From positions 1-49,572 of the forward strand of contig NZ_JBBAYJ010000028.1 in the NCBI RefSeq assembly GCF_037153975.1: DNA of 49,572 nt, in the 5' to 3' direction. The notes beneath the pieces were generated by a model that was not told where the DNA came from, ran no database searches, and worked only from the letters and a program-made list of their open reading frames with translations. The translations under genes were made by a program, and so were the position numbers. Positions 3,918 to 17,900 of the stretch are shown one piece after another; within the stretch, counting starts at the first letter, position 1; the number at the start of each line of letters is the position of its first letter. Source of the DNA: Aquipuribacter sp. SD81. GTDB lineage: Bacteria > Actinomycetota > Actinomycetes > Actinomycetales > JBBAYJ01.

Positions 3918-5497
3918 GCGCGGTCGCCCGACCCGCCGGTGCCCTCGGTGCCGTCGGGCCCGTCCGTGCTGTCGCGGGCGTCGCTGACGTCGCCGTCGTC
4001 GGGCGCGGTCCAGCGCCCGGCGGCGCGCTCGGCCGCGAGCTCCTCGCGGGCCTCGCTCTTGGCGTCCATCCGCTCGCGGTACGCCTCGCGCCGCTCCGCC
4101 CGGCTCGCGCGCCCGCCGTCCATCGCGAACCGCGCGTCGGTGCCCCGGGGACCGCCCGCGGCGCTGCCGCCCAGCGTCGGCTCCCAGTCGAAGACGACCG
4201 CCCGGTCGCCGTCGCCGATGACGACCTCGGCCCCCGCGACGGCCCCCGCCCGGTACAGCGCCTCCTCGACACCCGCACGGGCCAGCCGGTCGGCGAGGTA
4301 GCCGACGGCCTCCTCGTTCGCGAAGTCGGTCTGGCGGACCCAGCGCTCGGGCCGCCCGCCGCGCACGCGGTACAGCGTGCCCTCGCCGTGCTGCTCCGGC
4401 ACGACGGTGAACCCGGCGTCGTCGGTCGCGACGGGGCGGAGCACGACCCGCTCCGGCGCGCTCGGGCGGGCCCGGGCGGCGCGGTCGGCCGTCACCCAGC
4501 GCGCGAGACCGAAGGACAGCTCGCGCAGGCCGTCCCGGCTCACCGCGGACACGGTGAACACCTCGTAGCCCCGCTCGCGCAGCTGCGGCGCGACGAGCTC
4601 GGCCATGTCGCGGCCGTCGGTCGTGTCGACCTTGTTGAGGACGACGACCTGCGGCCGCTCGACGAGCGGGACGGTCCCGTCGTCACCGCGGTAGCGCTCC
4701 AGCTCGGCGAGGATGACGTCGAGGTCGCGCACCGGGTCGCGGTCGGCCTCGAGCGTCGCGGTGTCGAGGACGTGCGCGAGCACGGCGCAGCGCTCGACGT
4801 GGCGCAGGAACTCCAGGCCGAGGCCGCGGCCCTCGCTCGCGCCCTCGATGAGGCCCGGCACGTCGGCGATCGTGTACCGGACCTCGCCCGCCTCGACGAC
4901 GCCGAGGTTCGGCACGAGCGTCGTGAAGGGGTAGTCGGCGATCTTCGGCCGCGCGGCCGACATCGCGGCGACGAGGCTGGACTTGCCCGCGCTGGGGAAG
5001 CCGACGAGGGCGACGTCGGCGACGGTCTTGAGCTCGAGGACGACGTCGCGGGCCTCCCCCGGCTCGCCGAGCAGGGCGAAGCCGGGCGCCTTGCGGCGGG
5101 GGCTCGCGAGCGAGGCGTTGCCGAGGCCGCCGCGCCCGCCGGCGGCGACGACGAAGCGGGTGCCGGCACCGAGCAGGTCGGCGAGGACGTCCCCGGCCGG
5201 CGTCTGCACGACGGTGCCGTCCGGCACGCGCAGCTCGACGTCGGCGCCGTCGGCGCCGCTGCGGTTGCCGCCGCGCCCGACCCCGCCGGCCGCCGCCCGC
5301 CGGTGCGGCGAGCGGTGGTACTCCAGCAGCGTCGTCACGGAGGGGTCGACGACGAGGACGACGTCACCGCCGTGCCCGCCGTCGCCGCCGTCCGGGCCGC
5401 CGAGCGGCTTGAACTTCTCGCGGTGCACCGACGCGCAGCCGTTGCCGCCGTCCCCGCCGGCGACGTGCAGCACGACGCGGTCGACGAACTGGCTCAC
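3914..5497 (-). CDS. obgE: Obg-family GTPase (ObgE/CgtA)
   Basis: 527 residues. Ribosome-associated GTPase acting in 50S assembly and stress control. The glycine-rich Obg domain fills residues 1-158. The G domain follows, with P-loop GFPSAGKS at 166-173, DVPGL switch II near 215 and NKVD near 290. An OCT domain (about 345-430) ends in [16 protein letters not shown]. The last 90 residues are charged ([19 protein letters not shown]) and then acidic and probably disordered, as in other actinobacterial Obg proteins. GTG at 5497 has AGGAGG 6 nt upstream. Two strong hairpins lie between rpmA and this start, so obg may be partly insulated from the ribosomal-protein genes. Confidence 0.97.
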
Positions 5498-5528
5498 GGT
5501 GGGCCTCCTGGTCCTGGCGGTGCTGCGT

Positions 5529-5597
5529 GGGTCCGGCGGTGCCGCCGGACCCGGGAACGCGACGCGCCGGCCGTCCGCGGGGGACGACCGGCGCGTC
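5529..5597 (-). terminator. tandem hairpins between rpmA and obg
   Basis: Two inverted repeats follow each other. 5561-5597 has 10-bp perfect outer arms (GACGCGCCGG / CCGGCGCGTC) enclosing a 5-bp inner stem; 5529-5552 has an 11-bp perfect stem (GGGTCCGGCGG / CCGCCGGACCC) with a 2-nt loop. No U tract follows. They sit 25-37 nt past the rpmA stop and 32 nt before the obg GTG. A partial terminator or mRNA-stability element is likely; full termination would need a separate obg promoter, which I do not see. Confidence 0.55.
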
Positions 5598-5621
5598 GGC
5601 GCGTGGGTGCGGGTGCCTGGG

Positions 5622-5885
5622 TCAGGCGCTGGCCTCGGCGGCCACGATGTTGACGACGCGGCGGCCGCGGCGGGTGCCGAACTCGACGGCGCCCGGCGCG
5701 AGCGCGAACAGCGTGTCGTCGCTGCCCCGGCCGACGTTGGCGCCGGGGTGGAAGTGCGTGCCGCGCTGACGGACGATGATCTCGCCGGCGCCCACGACCT
5801 GACCGCCGAAGCGCTTCACGCCGAGGCGCTGCGCGTTGGAGTCGCGGCCGTTGCGGGTGGAGCTGGCGCCCTTCTTGTGTGCCAT
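5622..5885 (-). CDS. rpmA: 50S ribosomal protein L27
   Basis: 87 residues. Component of the large subunit whose N-terminus reaches the peptidyl-transferase centre. The start [20 protein letters not shown] and the following RLGVKRFGG are the L27 signature. The N-terminus begins directly with the mature-type sequence and has no cleavable extension of the Firmicutes kind. ATG at 5885 lies 6 nt after the rplU stop, and its SD (GGGGAG) is inside the end of rplU, so the pair is co-transcribed. Confidence 0.98.
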
Positions 5886-13023: not shown

Positions 13024-14361
13024 TCACGCCTCGCGGCGCACCGGTTGCGGGCGGGAGACCGACCCGCGCACGCCCAGGGCGTCGAAGGCCTGCTGGAACG
13101 CTCCGAGGGCGGCCTCGGCGCGGCCGATCTCCATGAGCCGGTCCCCGAGGTCGCGCCACGCCTGGGCGGCCTGACGGGAGGCGGACATCATGGCGAGCGC
13201 GTCGCCGGCCCGGCGGTACTCCGCCTCGGCGCCCGTGTGGTCGCCGCCGGCCGCCAGCGCGTCGCCGAGCACGGTCCGCGCGACCCCCGCCTCCAGCCGC
13301 GGCGTGCCGCCGAGCGCCGCCAGCGCCGAGCGGGCGGCGTCCTCGGCGAGGGCGGCGTCGCCGGAGCGCAGGTACGCCGTCGCCCGGATGCGGTGCCAGT
13401 ACGCGAGGTCGACCTCGCTGCCCAGCTGCTCCAGCGGCTCCCGGATCGAGGTGAGGGCGTCCACGGCCTCGTCCACCTCGGGCGGGTCGGCGGACAGCAG
13501 CAGCGACGCGAGCGCGAGCTTCAGGCGGAAGAAGTCGCGGTTGTCGGGCCCCTCGGACAGGAACGCGACGGCCCGGCGCGCGTGGTGCAGGGCCCGCTCC
13601 ACGTGCCCGCTCTCCTCGGCGACGAGCGCGGCGTTCCAGTGCAGGCTGCCCTGGCCCGTGCGGCTGCCGACGCGCTCGGCGTCCTGGAGCATCTCCTCGG
13701 CGAGGTGCTGGGCGTACAGCAGGTCGCCGCGCTCCATGTGGACCCCGACGAGGGTCGCGGCCAGGCGCAGGTGCTCGTCGGTGCCGGCCGAGCCCAGCCG
13801 GGTGGACGCGGCGACGGCCTCGGCGCCGGCGTCGGCGGCCTGGTTGAGGTCGCCGGACTCGACGAGGCACTGCAGCAGCAGGATGCCGGTCTCCGACACC
13901 CCGACGGCGGCGTCGCCGGTGAGCGCGCGCCGGTGCAGCGGCAGCAGCGTGGTGAGCGCGTCCTCGAGGGCTCCCGAGCGCTCCAGCGCCCGGCACAGCA
14001 CGAGCACGGCCTCGTCGTGCAGCCGACGCGGGGCGCCCCGGGCCGCGAGCACGGCGCGGGCGCGCGTGGTGGCCTCGTCGAGGTCACCGGTGACGAGAGC
14101 GTGACGGGCGTGCTCGAGCTCGAGCTCGGGCACCCGCTCCTCCGGCGCGGCGCTGCCGTGGCGCAGGAAGTGCGCGGACACGTCGAGGCGCTCGGCCAGC
14201 TTCTCCAGCACGGCGTCGCTCGGCGTGCGCTTGCCCGACTCGATGAGCGAGAGGTAGCTCGGCGACAGGTCCGGTCCGGCGAGCTGCGTCTGCGACACCC
14301 GGCGCTCCTCCCGCACCGCCCGCAGCCGCTCGCCGAGTCCCCCGGTGGTCCCCTCCGACAT
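13024..14361 (-). CDS. XRE-family HTH regulator with C-terminal TPR domain
   Basis: 445 residues; ATG at 14361 has GGAGGAGG 4-6 nt upstream. Residues 8-65 are an XRE helix-turn-helix (LGERLRAVREERRVSQTQLA, then SPSYLSLIESGKRTPS). The remaining 370 residues are all-helical TPR-like repeats, for example LHDEAVLVLCRALERSGALE, GSLHWNAALVAEESGHVERA and AWRDLGDRLMEIGRAEAALG. This is the architecture of cytoplasmic peptide-receptor regulators (RRNPP type), although many TPR-HTH proteins in actinobacteria have no known ligand. It is divergent, 152 nt away, from a tiny gene for a secreted peptide. Regulator assignment is firm; peptide control is inference. Confidence 0.88.
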   Translation of the reverse strand: MSEGTTGGLGERLRAVREERRVSQTQLAGPDLSPSYLSLIESGKRTPSDAVLEKLAERLDVSAHFLRHGSAAPEERVPELELEHARHALVTGDLDEATTRARAVLAARGAPRRLHDEAVLVLCRALERSGALEDALTTLLPLHRRALTGDAAVGVSETGILLLQCLVESGDLNQAADAGAEAVAASTRLGSAGTDEHLRLAATLVGVHMERGDLLYAQHLAEEMLQDAERVGSRTGQGSLHWNAALVAEESGHVERALHHARRAVAFLSEGPDNRDFFRLKLALASLLLSADPPEVDEAVDALTSIREPLEQLGSEVDLAYWHRIRATAYLRSGDAALAEDAARSALAALGGTPRLEAGVARTVLGDALAAGGDHTGAEAEYRRAGDALAMMSASRQAAQAWRDLGDRLMEIGRAEAALGAFQQAFDALGVRGSVSRPQPVRREA

Positions 14362-14410
14362 GTGTCCTCCTCCGCGGGCCGCGGAACGCTCCGACGGGCC
14401 CTGCCGGTCA

Positions 14411-14416
14411 ACACTA
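14411..14416 (-). promoter_or_regulatory. candidate -10 (TAGTGT) for the XRE-TPR gene
   Basis: TAGTGT on the minus strand would start RNA near 14404, about 43 nt before the ATG. GGTCAA (14406-14411) and TTGACC (14452-14457) flank the centre of this divergent intergenic region as an inverted pair and could be operator half-sites. Confidence 0.35.
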
Positions 14417-14513
14417 GACCCAGAGCCTGTGACTGAGCCATGCTTCCGCCATTGACCACTGGGCGTGCTCGTCCGACCACGGCCCGCCGCACCGCTACCC
14501 CAGGAGCCACACC

Positions 14514-14645
14514 ATGCGCCCCAGCCGACGCACCCTCGCCGCCGCCGCCCTGCTCGCCGCCCTGCTCGCAGGAGCGGCCGGCACCGCGGCCCAGGCGGCC
14601 GAGGACGAGGCCTTCGGTCCCGGCCCCATGTGCTGCGCGGGCTGA
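14514..14645 (+). CDS. 43-residue secreted peptide, divergent from the XRE-TPR regulator
   Basis: ATG at 14514 has AGGAG 8 nt upstream, a good ribosome site where nothing else needs one. The product has a classical signal peptide: basic start MRPSRRT, hydrophobic core of Ala/Leu (about residues 8-22) and an AQA-A cleavage region at 26-29. The remaining 14-residue tail is acidic then small and thiol-bearing, ending GPGPMCCAG. It is divergent from the XRE-TPR gene and is followed by a strong hairpin. A secreted signal, or a metal-binding or cell-surface micropeptide, would both fit; the position next to a TPR regulator favours a signal. No family is recognised. Confidence 0.6.
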   Translation: MRPSRRTLAAAALLAALLAGAAGTAAQAAEDEAFGPGPMCCAG

Positions 14646-14674
14646 CCCGCACCGCGCCCCTCACCCGACCGCGC

Positions 14675-14704
14675 GGGACGCCCCCGCGGTCGCGGGGACG
14701 TCCC
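14675..14704. terminator. hairpin between the peptide gene and ileS (convergent)
   Basis: The 30-nt sequence pairs 1-6 with 25-30 (GGGACG / CGTCCC) and 8-13 with 18-23 (CCCCGC / GCGGGG), with one C-A mismatch and a 4-nt loop. It lies 29 nt past the peptide stop and 25 nt past the ileS stop, so it can serve both strands. No U tract is seen, as is usual for this GC range. Confidence 0.6.
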
Positions 14705-14729
14705 GGGGTCGACCCGGGCGCGTCGGGCG

Positions 14730-17700
14730 TCAGACGCGGGTGACGGCGACCCGGGCGGTCTCGGCCGGCACGTCGCCCGTCGTCACGACGACGTCCTGCG
14801 CGAGCGTCTCCCGCGCGAGGAGACCGAGGTGCTCCTCGGCGGCCGCCCGCCGCTCGGCCGCGACGACGAGCTCGACCCGGACCCGGTCCGACACGTGCAG
14901 CCCGGCGACACGGCGCGCGTCCTGCACGAGCCGGACGACGTCGCGCGCCCAGCCCTCGCGCTCCAGCTCGTCGGTGACGCCGGTGTCGAGGACGACGAAC
15001 CCACCGCCCGGCAGGGCGGCCGCGGCCCCGCCGGAGCCGCCGCCGACGACCGTCGTGAGCTCGTACTCGCCGGCCAGCAGGGGGACGCCGCCGCACACCA
15101 CGCCGTCGCTGCCCTCCGACCAGTCGCCGGCGCGGGCCGCACCGATCACCTGCTGCACCTGACGACCCAGCCGGGGACCGGCGGCGCGGGCGTTGACGGT
15201 GAGGCGCCGCTCGACGTCGACGCCGACCTCGTGCGCCTGCTCGACCGAGAGCAGGCGGACCTCGTGCACGTTGAGCTCGGCGCGCACGAGGTCGACGAGG
15301 GGGGCGACGCGGTCGGGCTCGGCGACGGCCACCGTGAGCGCGCGCAGCGGCTGACGCACGCGCAGCCCGGCCGCCTTGCGCAGACCGAGGGCGGCCGAGG
15401 CGACGTCGCGCACCTCGTCCATCGCGGCGACGAGCGCGTCGTCGGCGGGCAGGGCGGTTGGGTCGGGCCAGTCCTCCAGGTGCACCGATCGACCACCGGT
15501 GAGCCCGCGCCACACCTCCTCCGTCACCAGCGGCAGCAGCGGCGCGCCGAGCCGGGTCAGCACCTCCAGCGCGGTGTGGAGCGTGTCGACCGCCGCCTGG
15601 CCCTCGGGGGTCTCCGCGGTCCAGAACCGGTCGCGGGAGCGTCGCACGTACCAGTTGGTCATCGCCTCGAGCACCTCGCGGTACTCCCCCGCCGCCACCG
15701 CGAGCTCGCTCGCCTCCATCGCGGCCGTCACGCGCTCCACGGCCGTCCGGACCCGCGCGAGCAGGTAGCGGTCGAGGACGTGCGGGGAGTCGGTCCGGGT
15801 GCGCCCGACGGTCCCCGCGGCGCCGGCGTACAGCTGCAGGAAGTACCAGGTGCTCCACAGCGGCAGCAGCACCTGCCGGACGGTGTCGCGGATGCCCTGC
15901 TCGGTGACGACGAGGTTGCCGCCCCGGAGCACCGGAGAGCTCATGAGGAACCACCGCATGGCGTCGGCGCCGTCGCGGTCGAAGACCTCGCGCACGTCCG
16001 GGTAGTTGCGCAGCGACTTGCTCATCTTGCGCCCGTCGTCGCCCAGCAGGATGCCGTGCACGAGGCACGTGCGGAACGCGGGCCGGTCGAACAGGGCCGT
16101 GGCGAGCACGTGCAGCGTGTAGAACCAGCCGCGGACCTGCCCGTTGTACTCGACGATGAAGTCGCCCGGGTAGTGGTGCTCGAACCAGTCGGCGTTCTCG
16201 AACGGGTAGTGCACCTGGGCGAAGGGCATGGAGCCGGACTCGAACCAGCAGTCGAGCACCTCCGGCACCCGGCGCATCGTGGAGCGGCCCGTCGGGTCGT
16301 CCGGGTTGGGGCGGGTGAGCTCGTCGACGACCGGGCGGTGCAGGTCGGTCGGGCGCACGCCGAAGTCGCGCTCGAGGTCGTCGAGGGAGCCGTAGACGTC
16401 GACGCGCGGGTAGGCGGGGTCGTCGGAGACCCACACGGGGATGGGCGAGCCCCAGAACCGGTTGCGGCTGATCGACCAGTCGCGGGCGTTGGCGAGCCAC
16501 TGGCCGAAGGAGCCGTCCTTCACGTGGCCGGGCACCCAGTCGATCTGCTCGTTGAGCTCGAGCATGCGGTCCTTGAACGCCGTCACCTTGACGAACCAGC
16601 TGCTGACGGCCCGGTAGATGAGCGCGTTGCCGCAGCGCCAGCAGTGCGGGTACGGGTGCTCGTAGGACTCGTGGCGCAGCAGCAGCCCCCGCTCGCGCAG
16701 CGCCCGGGCGATCGGGGTGTTGGCCTCGAACACGTGCATGCCGGCGAAGTCAGGCACCTCGGCGGTGAACTCGCCCTTGCTGTCGACGGGCACGACCGGC
16801 TCGATGCCGGCCGCGTCGGTGACGACCTTGTCCTCCTCGCCGAAGGCGGGCGCGATGTGGACGAGGCCGGTGCCGTCCTCGGTCGTCACGTAGTCGGCCG
16901 CGAGCACCCGGTGGGCGTTCTCCCGGCCGACGAAGTAGTCGAAGGGCGGCGTGTAGCGGCGCCCCAGCAGCGCGGTGCCCTTCATCCGCTCGAGGACCTC
17001 CGGGTCCTCGCCGAGCTCGCGGGCGTAGGCGGCGACGCGCGCCTCGGCGAGCACGAGCCGCTCCCCGGCCCAGTCCCCCTCGCGCGGGCGGACCACGACG
17101 TAGTCGAGCGCGGGGTTGACCGCGGCCGCGAGGTTGCTGGGCAGCGTCCACGGCGTCGTCGTCCACACGAGGGCGAGCTCGCCGGTCTCCAGGCGCAGCC
17201 CGACCGTCACGGCCGGGTCCTGGCGCGGGCGGTAGACGTCGTCCATCCGGGTCTCGGTGTTGCTCAGCGGGGTCTCGCAGCGCCAGCAGTACGCGAGCAC
17301 CCGGAAGCCCTCGTAGACCAGACCCTTGTCGTGGAGCGTCTTGAACGCCCACATGACCGACTCCATGTAGTCGAGGTCGAGGGTCTTGTAGTCGTGCTCG
17401 AAGTCCACCCAGCGCGCCTGGCGGGTGACGTAGTCCTGCCACTCGTCGGTGTAGCGCAGCACCGAGGTGCGGCACGCGTCGTTGAAGCGCGCGACACCGA
17501 GGGCCTCGATCTCGCTCTTGTGGGTGATGCCGAGCTGCCGCTCGGCCTCGACCTCGGCCGGGAGCCCGTGGCAGTCCCACCCGAACCGGCGCTCCACGCG
17601 GCGGCCCTGCATGGTGCGGAACCGCGGCACGACGTCCTTGACGTAGCCGGTGAGCAGGTGCCCGTAGTGCGGCAGGCCGTTGGCGAACGGCGGGCCGTCG

Positions 17701-17900
17701 TAGAAGACGAACTCGTTGTCGCCGTCGGTGCCGGCGGGGCGCGCGGCGACGGAGGCGTCGAAGGTGCCGTCGGCGTCCCAGTAGGCGAGGACGCGCTGCT
17801 CGACCTCGGGGAAGCGGGGGCTGGCGGGGACCTCGCCGCCGTGCCGGGGGTAGCCGGCTCGGGTCGTCGGCTCGGTGGCGGTCTCGGGCGGGGTGCTCAT
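14730..17900 (-). CDS. ileS: isoleucyl-tRNA synthetase (type 2, eukaryote-like)
   Basis: 1056 residues. It charges tRNA-Ile and edits misactivated valine. The HIGH motif appears as HYGH at 78-81 in [25 protein letters not shown] follows; KMSKS is at 625-629. The CP1 editing domain lies between, including [15 protein letters not shown]. Length and the GLPHYGH context match the IleRS2 class found in mycobacteria and eukaryotes, which lacks the usual C-terminal zinc-finger tail; members of this class tend to be insensitive to mupirocin (family knowledge). Expression is under a T-box leader. Confidence 0.96.

Follow-up and report, generated by a model that had tools for sequence, protein, structure and literature searches.

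The peptide receptors of the RRNPP(A) group (Rap, Rgg, NprR, PlcR, PrgX and AimR) have been described for Firmicutes. Their DNA-binding members are formed by a helix-turn-helix (HTH) domain followed by tetratricopeptide repeats (TPR), an adjacent short gene encodes a propeptide with a secretion-like signal, the message being carried in its C-terminal tail, and a conserved Asn is located on a TPR helix A. In Actinomycetota the signals are typically small molecules according to a passage of PMC10075063, with gamma-butyrolactones given as an example in one section of PMC13220807; part of a review adds the general remark that, in addition to gamma-butyrolactones, actinobacteria make use of cyclic or modified peptides (PMC4748050). 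Among the matches listed from the open-access literature (no preprints and few subscription journals), no such receptor and peptide pair was described in Actinomycetota. The present work deals with a 49,572-nucleotide stretch of Aquipuribacter sp. SD81 (contig NZ_JBBAYJ010000028.1, hereafter the window), where a regulator with an HTH and a TPR domain is divergent from a 43-codon gene whose product ends in a tail with two adjacent cysteines (Cys-Cys, or CC). This divergent arrangement is confirmed as a real observation. Probably the regulator is an RRNPP-like receptor of Actinomycetota and the peptide its pheromone, whose Cys-Cys signal would be of a new kind, and the recurrence of the pair in many actinobacterial families suggests an undescribed peptide signalling system.

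The regulator has 445 residues. Pfam identified an XRE-type HTH at residues 9-63 (HTH_31, E 2.3e-10) and TPR models covering the remainder, the best by E value being TPR_MalT (E 5.4e-10, 39.5 bits, below the cut-off of 45). The AlphaFold model, built from 59 sequences, has a mean pLDDT (predicted local distance difference test) of 90 and comprises the HTH helices and then about nine helical hairpins at residues 73-429. The small gene has its own Shine-Dalgarno sequence and encodes the 43-residue peptide MRPSRRTLAAAALLAALLAGAAGTAAQAAEDEAFGPGPMCCAG, where Arg residues, a hydrophobic core and the triplet AQA form, by eye, a signal-peptide-like start. This plan of both genes had been proposed in a preliminary description made from the sequence alone, and it is seen again here in full. 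The tail ending GPGPMCCAG also stands, but it is read here as 15 residues and not 14, with the likely cleavage site, placed by eye, between AQA and the following A. Open reading frames (ORFs) of such length are easily missed by gene finders.

The pairing of regulator and peptide was examined across relatives with one rule: an ORF of 30-85 codons within about 1.1 kb of the regulator, with a signal-peptide-like start (judged by our own rule, not by SignalP) and CC in the last 12 residues. An ORF conforming to it, intact and in frame, was identified at 138 of 165 loci, which are not a random sample (117 upstream, 16 downstream, 5 on both sides and 27 with none). After de-replication at 80% identity it was found beside 65 of 91 regulators. 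The preliminary description would have been refuted by a small ORF missing or broken next to regulator orthologues, and the reverse was observed. The rule matched 1 of 159 control tiles (0/41 elsewhere in the window, 1/73 in far flanks and 0/45 at off-target loci), each tile being 1140 bases long and each regulator locus having been searched in two windows of this length; the lone far-flank match belongs to a regulator locus scored as none, L106. Other doublets at the position of CC were identified at fewer loci: AA in 21 of the 165, SS in 17, TT in 12, WW in 1 and YY in none; the matches for GG (56) and GC (76) are taken as largely the same peptides. Exactly two cysteines are present in 124 of the 132 distinct peptides.

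Three sources, overlapping with one another, supplied the 165 loci, and some genes are included twice (L017 and L035, for example). The order search matched 16 of 297 genomes at E 1e-20 and contributed 18 of its 21 places, L030, L033 and L034 being tandem-array fragments that were left out. The named genome collection contributed the best 80 of its 150 regulator loci. The class search with a profile matched 85 of 394 genomes at E 1e-30; 70 of its 113 listed places were taken (30 returned with the search and 40 picked to span families) and 67 entered, duplicates L125-L127 being dropped. Recoding at in-frame stops, flagged in the class search, was rejected, the stops being C-terminal in the six flagged loci inspected. 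The final rule was set after seeing the data, because a stricter signal-peptide filter (79/165) had excluded evident members. A looser earlier rule gave 86/98 and 45/70 upstream, with a background of 1/48 window tiles and 11/167 downstream tiles, eight of these 11 being taken as real peptides. Conservation figures are based on 82 of the 91 de-replicated regulators (nine distant or odd rows left out), and the regulator tree was built with FastTree, 24 of its 88 inner branches being open.

The family of the window is paired in its three loci. Pairing is also complete in Cellulomonadaceae (55/55), Streptomycetaceae (4/4), Kineosporiaceae (2/2) and three families labelled by number, f9 (6/6), f32 (5/5) and f44 (3/3), and partial in f38 (20/21), f45 (9/12), f16 (7/8), f35 (5/14), f54 (2/4) and Micromonosporaceae (1/2). 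By rule it is absent from Streptosporangiaceae (0/3), where a CC peptide was identified in L106 and L112 with its end about 3.5 kb from the regulator start, beyond a Peptidase_S9 gene. This peptidase gene, lying between regulator and peptide (L106:3867-5675, L112:2899-4698), could have a role in processing or degrading the peptide. The position of the peptide gene is variable: among the 65 de-replicated cases it is upstream and co-directional in 26, upstream and divergent in 23, downstream antisense in 13 and downstream sense in 3. At least 12 changes of position were counted on the regulator tree, pairing and CC being retained throughout.

The tails differ between groups around the constant CC. 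They read GGATGCCR plus a short tail in Cellulomonas, GSTGCCK-x in Actinotalea, TVWCC or NVWCC in f45, GGIWCC or GGQWCC in f44 and IPLCC or VPLCC in Streptomyces, and in f38 WPGMCC or PGDFCC stand at the very end. Some CC peptides are longer, of 64-71 residues. None of 12 peptides compared with NCBIfam or Pfam belonged to a family at cut-off. A phylum-wide search matched 36 of 396 genomes, and the peptide was identified at 3 of 29 loci, all in family f60, as divergent ORFs of 30-33 residues beside same-family regulators (L239, L243 and L247; tails APFPGCCG, APWPHCC and APWPPCC); allowing shorter ORFs at the phylum-wide loci gave no further members.

Selection on the reading frame was estimated from 31 hand-picked pairs of close relatives. 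The ratio of nonsynonymous to synonymous change (pN/pS) was 0.41 in the frame of the ORF and 0.34 in its last 12 codons, the two remaining forward frames giving 1.20 and 1.76. In the genus of the window, three pairs gave 0.47-0.82 for the whole ORF, a weaker signal, and 0.14-0.58 for the last ten codons. By this measure the frame of the small ORF is under purifying selection which, with the retained CC, provides the two checks that the preliminary description had called for.

The promoters of the peptide genes share an element. An unsupervised motif search returned GTCAT-N-AT followed by TGA, mostly near -50, and a GTCA-N8/9-TGAC dyad (GTCA[TC]N2TN4-5TGAC) was identified in 51 of 77 non-redundant upstream regions of the peptide, of which 50 have it 38-59 nt ahead of the start codon; dinucleotide shuffles gave a mean of 0.1 and a maximum of 3. 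Ten genomes (3.3-4.4 Mb) contain one copy each of the strict form TGTCATAGTN5TGAC (backwards control 0), all 10 sites being located 24-43 nt before the start of a CC peptide. A longer form of the dyad, with one mismatch allowed, gave 20 sites in 9 of 10 further genomes (backwards control 0). Seven of these are exact and each lies at a CC-peptide gene, in seven of the 10 genomes; in three of those seven a one-mismatch site precedes the first aligned regulator codon by 14 nt, and one further site lies farther upstream of the peptide gene. In two Kineosporia-like genomes (G1020 and G162; L257 and L258), an identical one-mismatch dyad, ATCACCCTTCCGGTGACCCAAGGTCA, lies off the regulator locus and is a possible further target. 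The genus of the window has an element of its own, TGTGACTGRGMCATGCTTC (14428-14446), invariant in three genomes and present without mismatch once in each. The inverted pair GGTCAA / TTGACC, 40 nt apart, was correctly noted in the preliminary description, but as an operator it is rejected, GGTCAA not being conserved in congeners. In the wider family it is the GTCA/TGAC dyad that is conserved in these promoters.

The predicted fold of the regulator fits a peptide receptor. Helices A form the inner lining of TPR superhelices, and in the 82 regulators their mean information is 1.75 bits, against 1.31 bits for the less conserved helices B. The most conserved positions are W242 (81/82), W402 (80/82) and N243 (73/82). 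Repeat 5 carries W242 and N243 on its helix A; R275 and R279, in repeat 6, are also among the best-conserved TPR positions. In RapF the peptide backbone is held by a strictly conserved Asn (Asn227) of a TPR helix, according to part of PMC3601957; N243, likewise on a TPR helix, is a possible counterpart. A disulfide between peptide and receptor is without support, because no receptor Cys is invariant (best column C in 43/82).

Structural neighbours of the model included LGN (Z 26.1), RapI (22.1, 347 residues aligned), Rap with CSF (21.6), MalT (20.9) and NprR (20.3), with PlcR at Foldseek rank 14. By sequence, PlcR and ComR (E 7.7e-5, profile positions 1-62, the HTH) were the only solved RRNPP receptors among the best 60 of 190 matches. 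The HTH-TPR plan and the adjacent short gene with a secretion-like signal (by rule) place these pairs close to RRNPP(A). Further likenesses are a message that presumably sits in the tail of the propeptide, likely self-regulation, and an Asn conserved on a TPR helix A, perhaps at a comparable position. The pairs differ in belonging to Actinomycetota instead of Firmicutes and in the conserved Cys-Cys of the tail. MalT shares the TPR_MalT model and, through its domain III, the fold. Its ligand is maltotriose, and it combines an ATPase with a LuxR-type HTH; in the present regulator the HTH is of XRE type, and a peptide gene lies alongside. Of two actinobacterial regulator families, NsdA is TPR-like as well and RamB matches in the HTH, both with scores far below cut-off (14.4 of 75 and 30.5 of 700).

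The candidate peptide-signalling pair of the preliminary description is thus supported by the persistent pairing, the retained CC, purifying selection, the HTH-TPR plan and a predicted TPR fold with a conserved inner face; the promoter dyad and three oligopeptide-binding proteins (PF00496) in the genome of the window are further observations. From these the following route may be inferred. The small gene would yield a precursor exported through Sec by its signal peptide, and a short C-terminal peptide with the Cys-Cys pair would be released. An oligopeptide permease would take the released peptide back in, and inside the cell it would bind the concave face of the TPR domain. Binding would alter the hold of the HTH on GTCA/TGAC sites, which stand in the peptide promoter and, for some genomes, ahead of the regulator gene as well, and as an outcome the signal would govern its own production. 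There is about an even chance that these peptides form a family of pheromones spread across Actinomycetota, that every one is read by a dedicated HTH-TPR receptor inside the cell, and that the two vicinal cysteines contribute to the message. The Cys pair might, as an example, be oxidised or metal-bound outside and reduced after import, the receptor reading the thiol form.

Several findings weigh against a receptor and pheromone pair. By rule 27 of the 165 loci have no ORF, 9 of the 14 loci of f35 among them, and families f5, f6, f27, f37 and f53 together give 0/7; in f27 the ORF is present in L128 by looser rules, and L129 and L130 have little upstream DNA. Of the phylum-wide loci, 26 of 29 are without the peptide. 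The class-search loci were partly hand-chosen and second copies in f35 genomes were mostly left out, so 138/165 does not describe a random sample. One reverse frame also had a low pN/pS (reverse frames 1.38, 0.53 and 2.06), as might be expected if third positions coincide. The top structural matches are eukaryotic peptide-binding TPR proteins such as LGN, and the fold does not single out RRNPP, because LGN and other TPR proteins rank equal or higher. The match of the regulator profile to PlcR (E 2.5e-8, profile positions 1-180) spans the HTH and the first repeats and may owe part of its score to the HTH. PF00496 proteins are common, being identified in 11 of 14 control genomes. Nine one-mismatch sites of the longer dyad are outside the locus and could be further targets or chance. 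Finally, the promoter of the window itself does not match the dyad of the wider family.

The features of the window are collected in Table 1. The next gene downstream of the peptide gene is a class I tRNA synthetase (14730-17900) on the opposite strand, so the peptide gene is alone in its direction of transcription. The strong hairpin 3' of it, indicated in the preliminary description, is present (region 14640-14735, -62.2 kcal/mol, z -2.8 against shuffles); it has no T-run, and consensus scans of the locus called neither a terminator nor a sigma-70-like promoter.

Table 1. Elements of the regulator and peptide locus, in positions of the window
Feature	Position	Strand	Basis or remark
HTH-TPR regulator, 445 residues; proposed intracellular receptor of the peptide	13024..14361	-	ORF, Pfam, model, relatives
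TPR domain, residues 73-429, about nine helical hairpins (predicted)	13075..14145	-	AlphaFold model and conservation
DNA-binding HTH domain, residues 9-68	14158..14337	-	Pfam HTH_31/HTH_3 and model helices
GGTCAA	14406..14411	+	Lost as such in two congeners; GTCA core kept in one
TGTGACTGAGCCATGCTTC, proposed promoter/operator of the peptide gene	14428..14446	+	Alignment of three congeneric genomes
TTGACC	14452..14457	+	CTGACC and CGGACC in congeners
Shine-Dalgarno AGGAG of the peptide gene	14502..14506	+	7 nt before ATG
Peptide gene, 43 codons and stop	14514..14645	+	ORF, family rule, selection
Signal-peptide-like part, residues 1-28 (Arg residues, hydrophobic core, AQA)	14514..14597	+	By eye and rule
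Proposed released tail AEDEAFGPGPMCCAG	14598..14642	+	CC kept in relatives
Cys codons of the tail	14631-14636	+	
Strong GC hairpin 3' of the peptide gene, without T-run	14666..14711	+	Folding, scan

The most likely alternative, to which we give a small but real share, is that the CC peptide is an effector (an antimicrobial, a metal- or thiol-binding peptide or the precursor of a ribosomally synthesised and post-translationally modified peptide) and that the HTH-TPR protein controls its gene upon another cue. Vicinal cysteines suit metal or thiol chemistry, the regulator may well control the peptide gene through the dyad, some of the peptides reach 64-71 residues, and a CopD-domain ORF neighbours the f35 regulator at L216, a locus without a CC peptide by rule. 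However, no modifying enzyme or exporter common between families was identified in the ORF lists of nine wider loci, a partial look because only seven neighbour ORFs were tested by Pfam. In these nine loci neighbours recur within a family, in two of f38 and, as Peptidase_S9, in both of Streptosporangiaceae. The 12 peptides tested gave no NCBIfam or Pfam family at cut-off, and the sole constant partner of the peptides is the TPR protein, whose inner face is conserved.

A role of the peptide at the cell surface or in the secretion pathway, the regulator sensing the state of the envelope or of secretion indirectly, is much less likely. The visible features of the peptide, a secretion-like signal and a CC tail, would agree with it, but the CC is near the C-terminus and not at the cleavage site as in lipoproteins, and a close and movable pairing with a TPR regulator for which no secretion is predicted exceeds what an indirect link to stress needs. 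Still less probable is a cysteine-sensing leader (attenuator), where ribosomes stalling at the two Cys codons would tune a downstream gene. The codons are adjacent and close to the stop, co-directional ORFs lie about 70-360 nt upstream of the regulator, and such leaders are known from mycobacteria. In the window, however, the ORF is not directly upstream of a co-directional target, the tRNA synthetase being on the other strand; among the 65 cases 23 are divergent and 16 downstream of the regulator, and a leader needs neither a signal peptide nor selection on the residues flanking the cysteines. A chance ORF without product, as might be thought of a short frame in GC-rich DNA where signal-like starts arise easily, is practically dismissed by 138/165 against 1/159, the pN/pS of 0.41 and the promoter dyad.

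Some genomes and replicons contain more than one element of this kind. Genome G442 has three receptors with three different CC peptides (L172, L177 and L183). In f38, loci L144, L148, L149 and L151 present a second, different CC peptide across the regulator, at about +1430 from its start, with tails such as TPDGGSDFCC; in the wider region of L151 (L214) the second peptide is flanked by the regulator on one side and by an EamA transporter gene on the other, and a second regulator is absent from the ORF list. Tandem regulators were identified in G219 (L032/L022), in G148 (L019/L031) and on contig C158 of G078 (L021, L030, L033 and L034), and in G219 and G148 CC peptides lie next to or in between the regulators, which looks like a duplication of the module.

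Distant relatives of the regulator were also found on 16 plasmid records, outside the 165 loci. In six plasmid and phage regions examined, the rule (up to 110 codons) matched three; L209 and L211 were judged chance by eye, and the phage contig gave no match. The clear case is the Streptomyces goshikiensis plasmid NZ_CP108058.1 (L207, locus 5496-5711), where the CC peptide of 71 residues is annotated as hypothetical protein WP_008741297.1, the sole copy met in an annotated record. It lies near the gene for a putative regulator with a BTAD domain, and a link to the control of antibiotic genes is possible.

The organisms in which the pair recurs belong to Cellulomonadaceae, Kineosporiaceae, Streptomycetaceae, Micromonosporaceae (1 of 2 loci) and further families labelled by number, and Actinobacteria are the main producers of antibiotics. 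If the reading as receptor and pheromone is true, signalling of this kind in Actinomycetota would be opened to direct test, since a candidate ligand, receptor and operator are all named. Genomes with several receptors and different CC peptides would then have several private channels.

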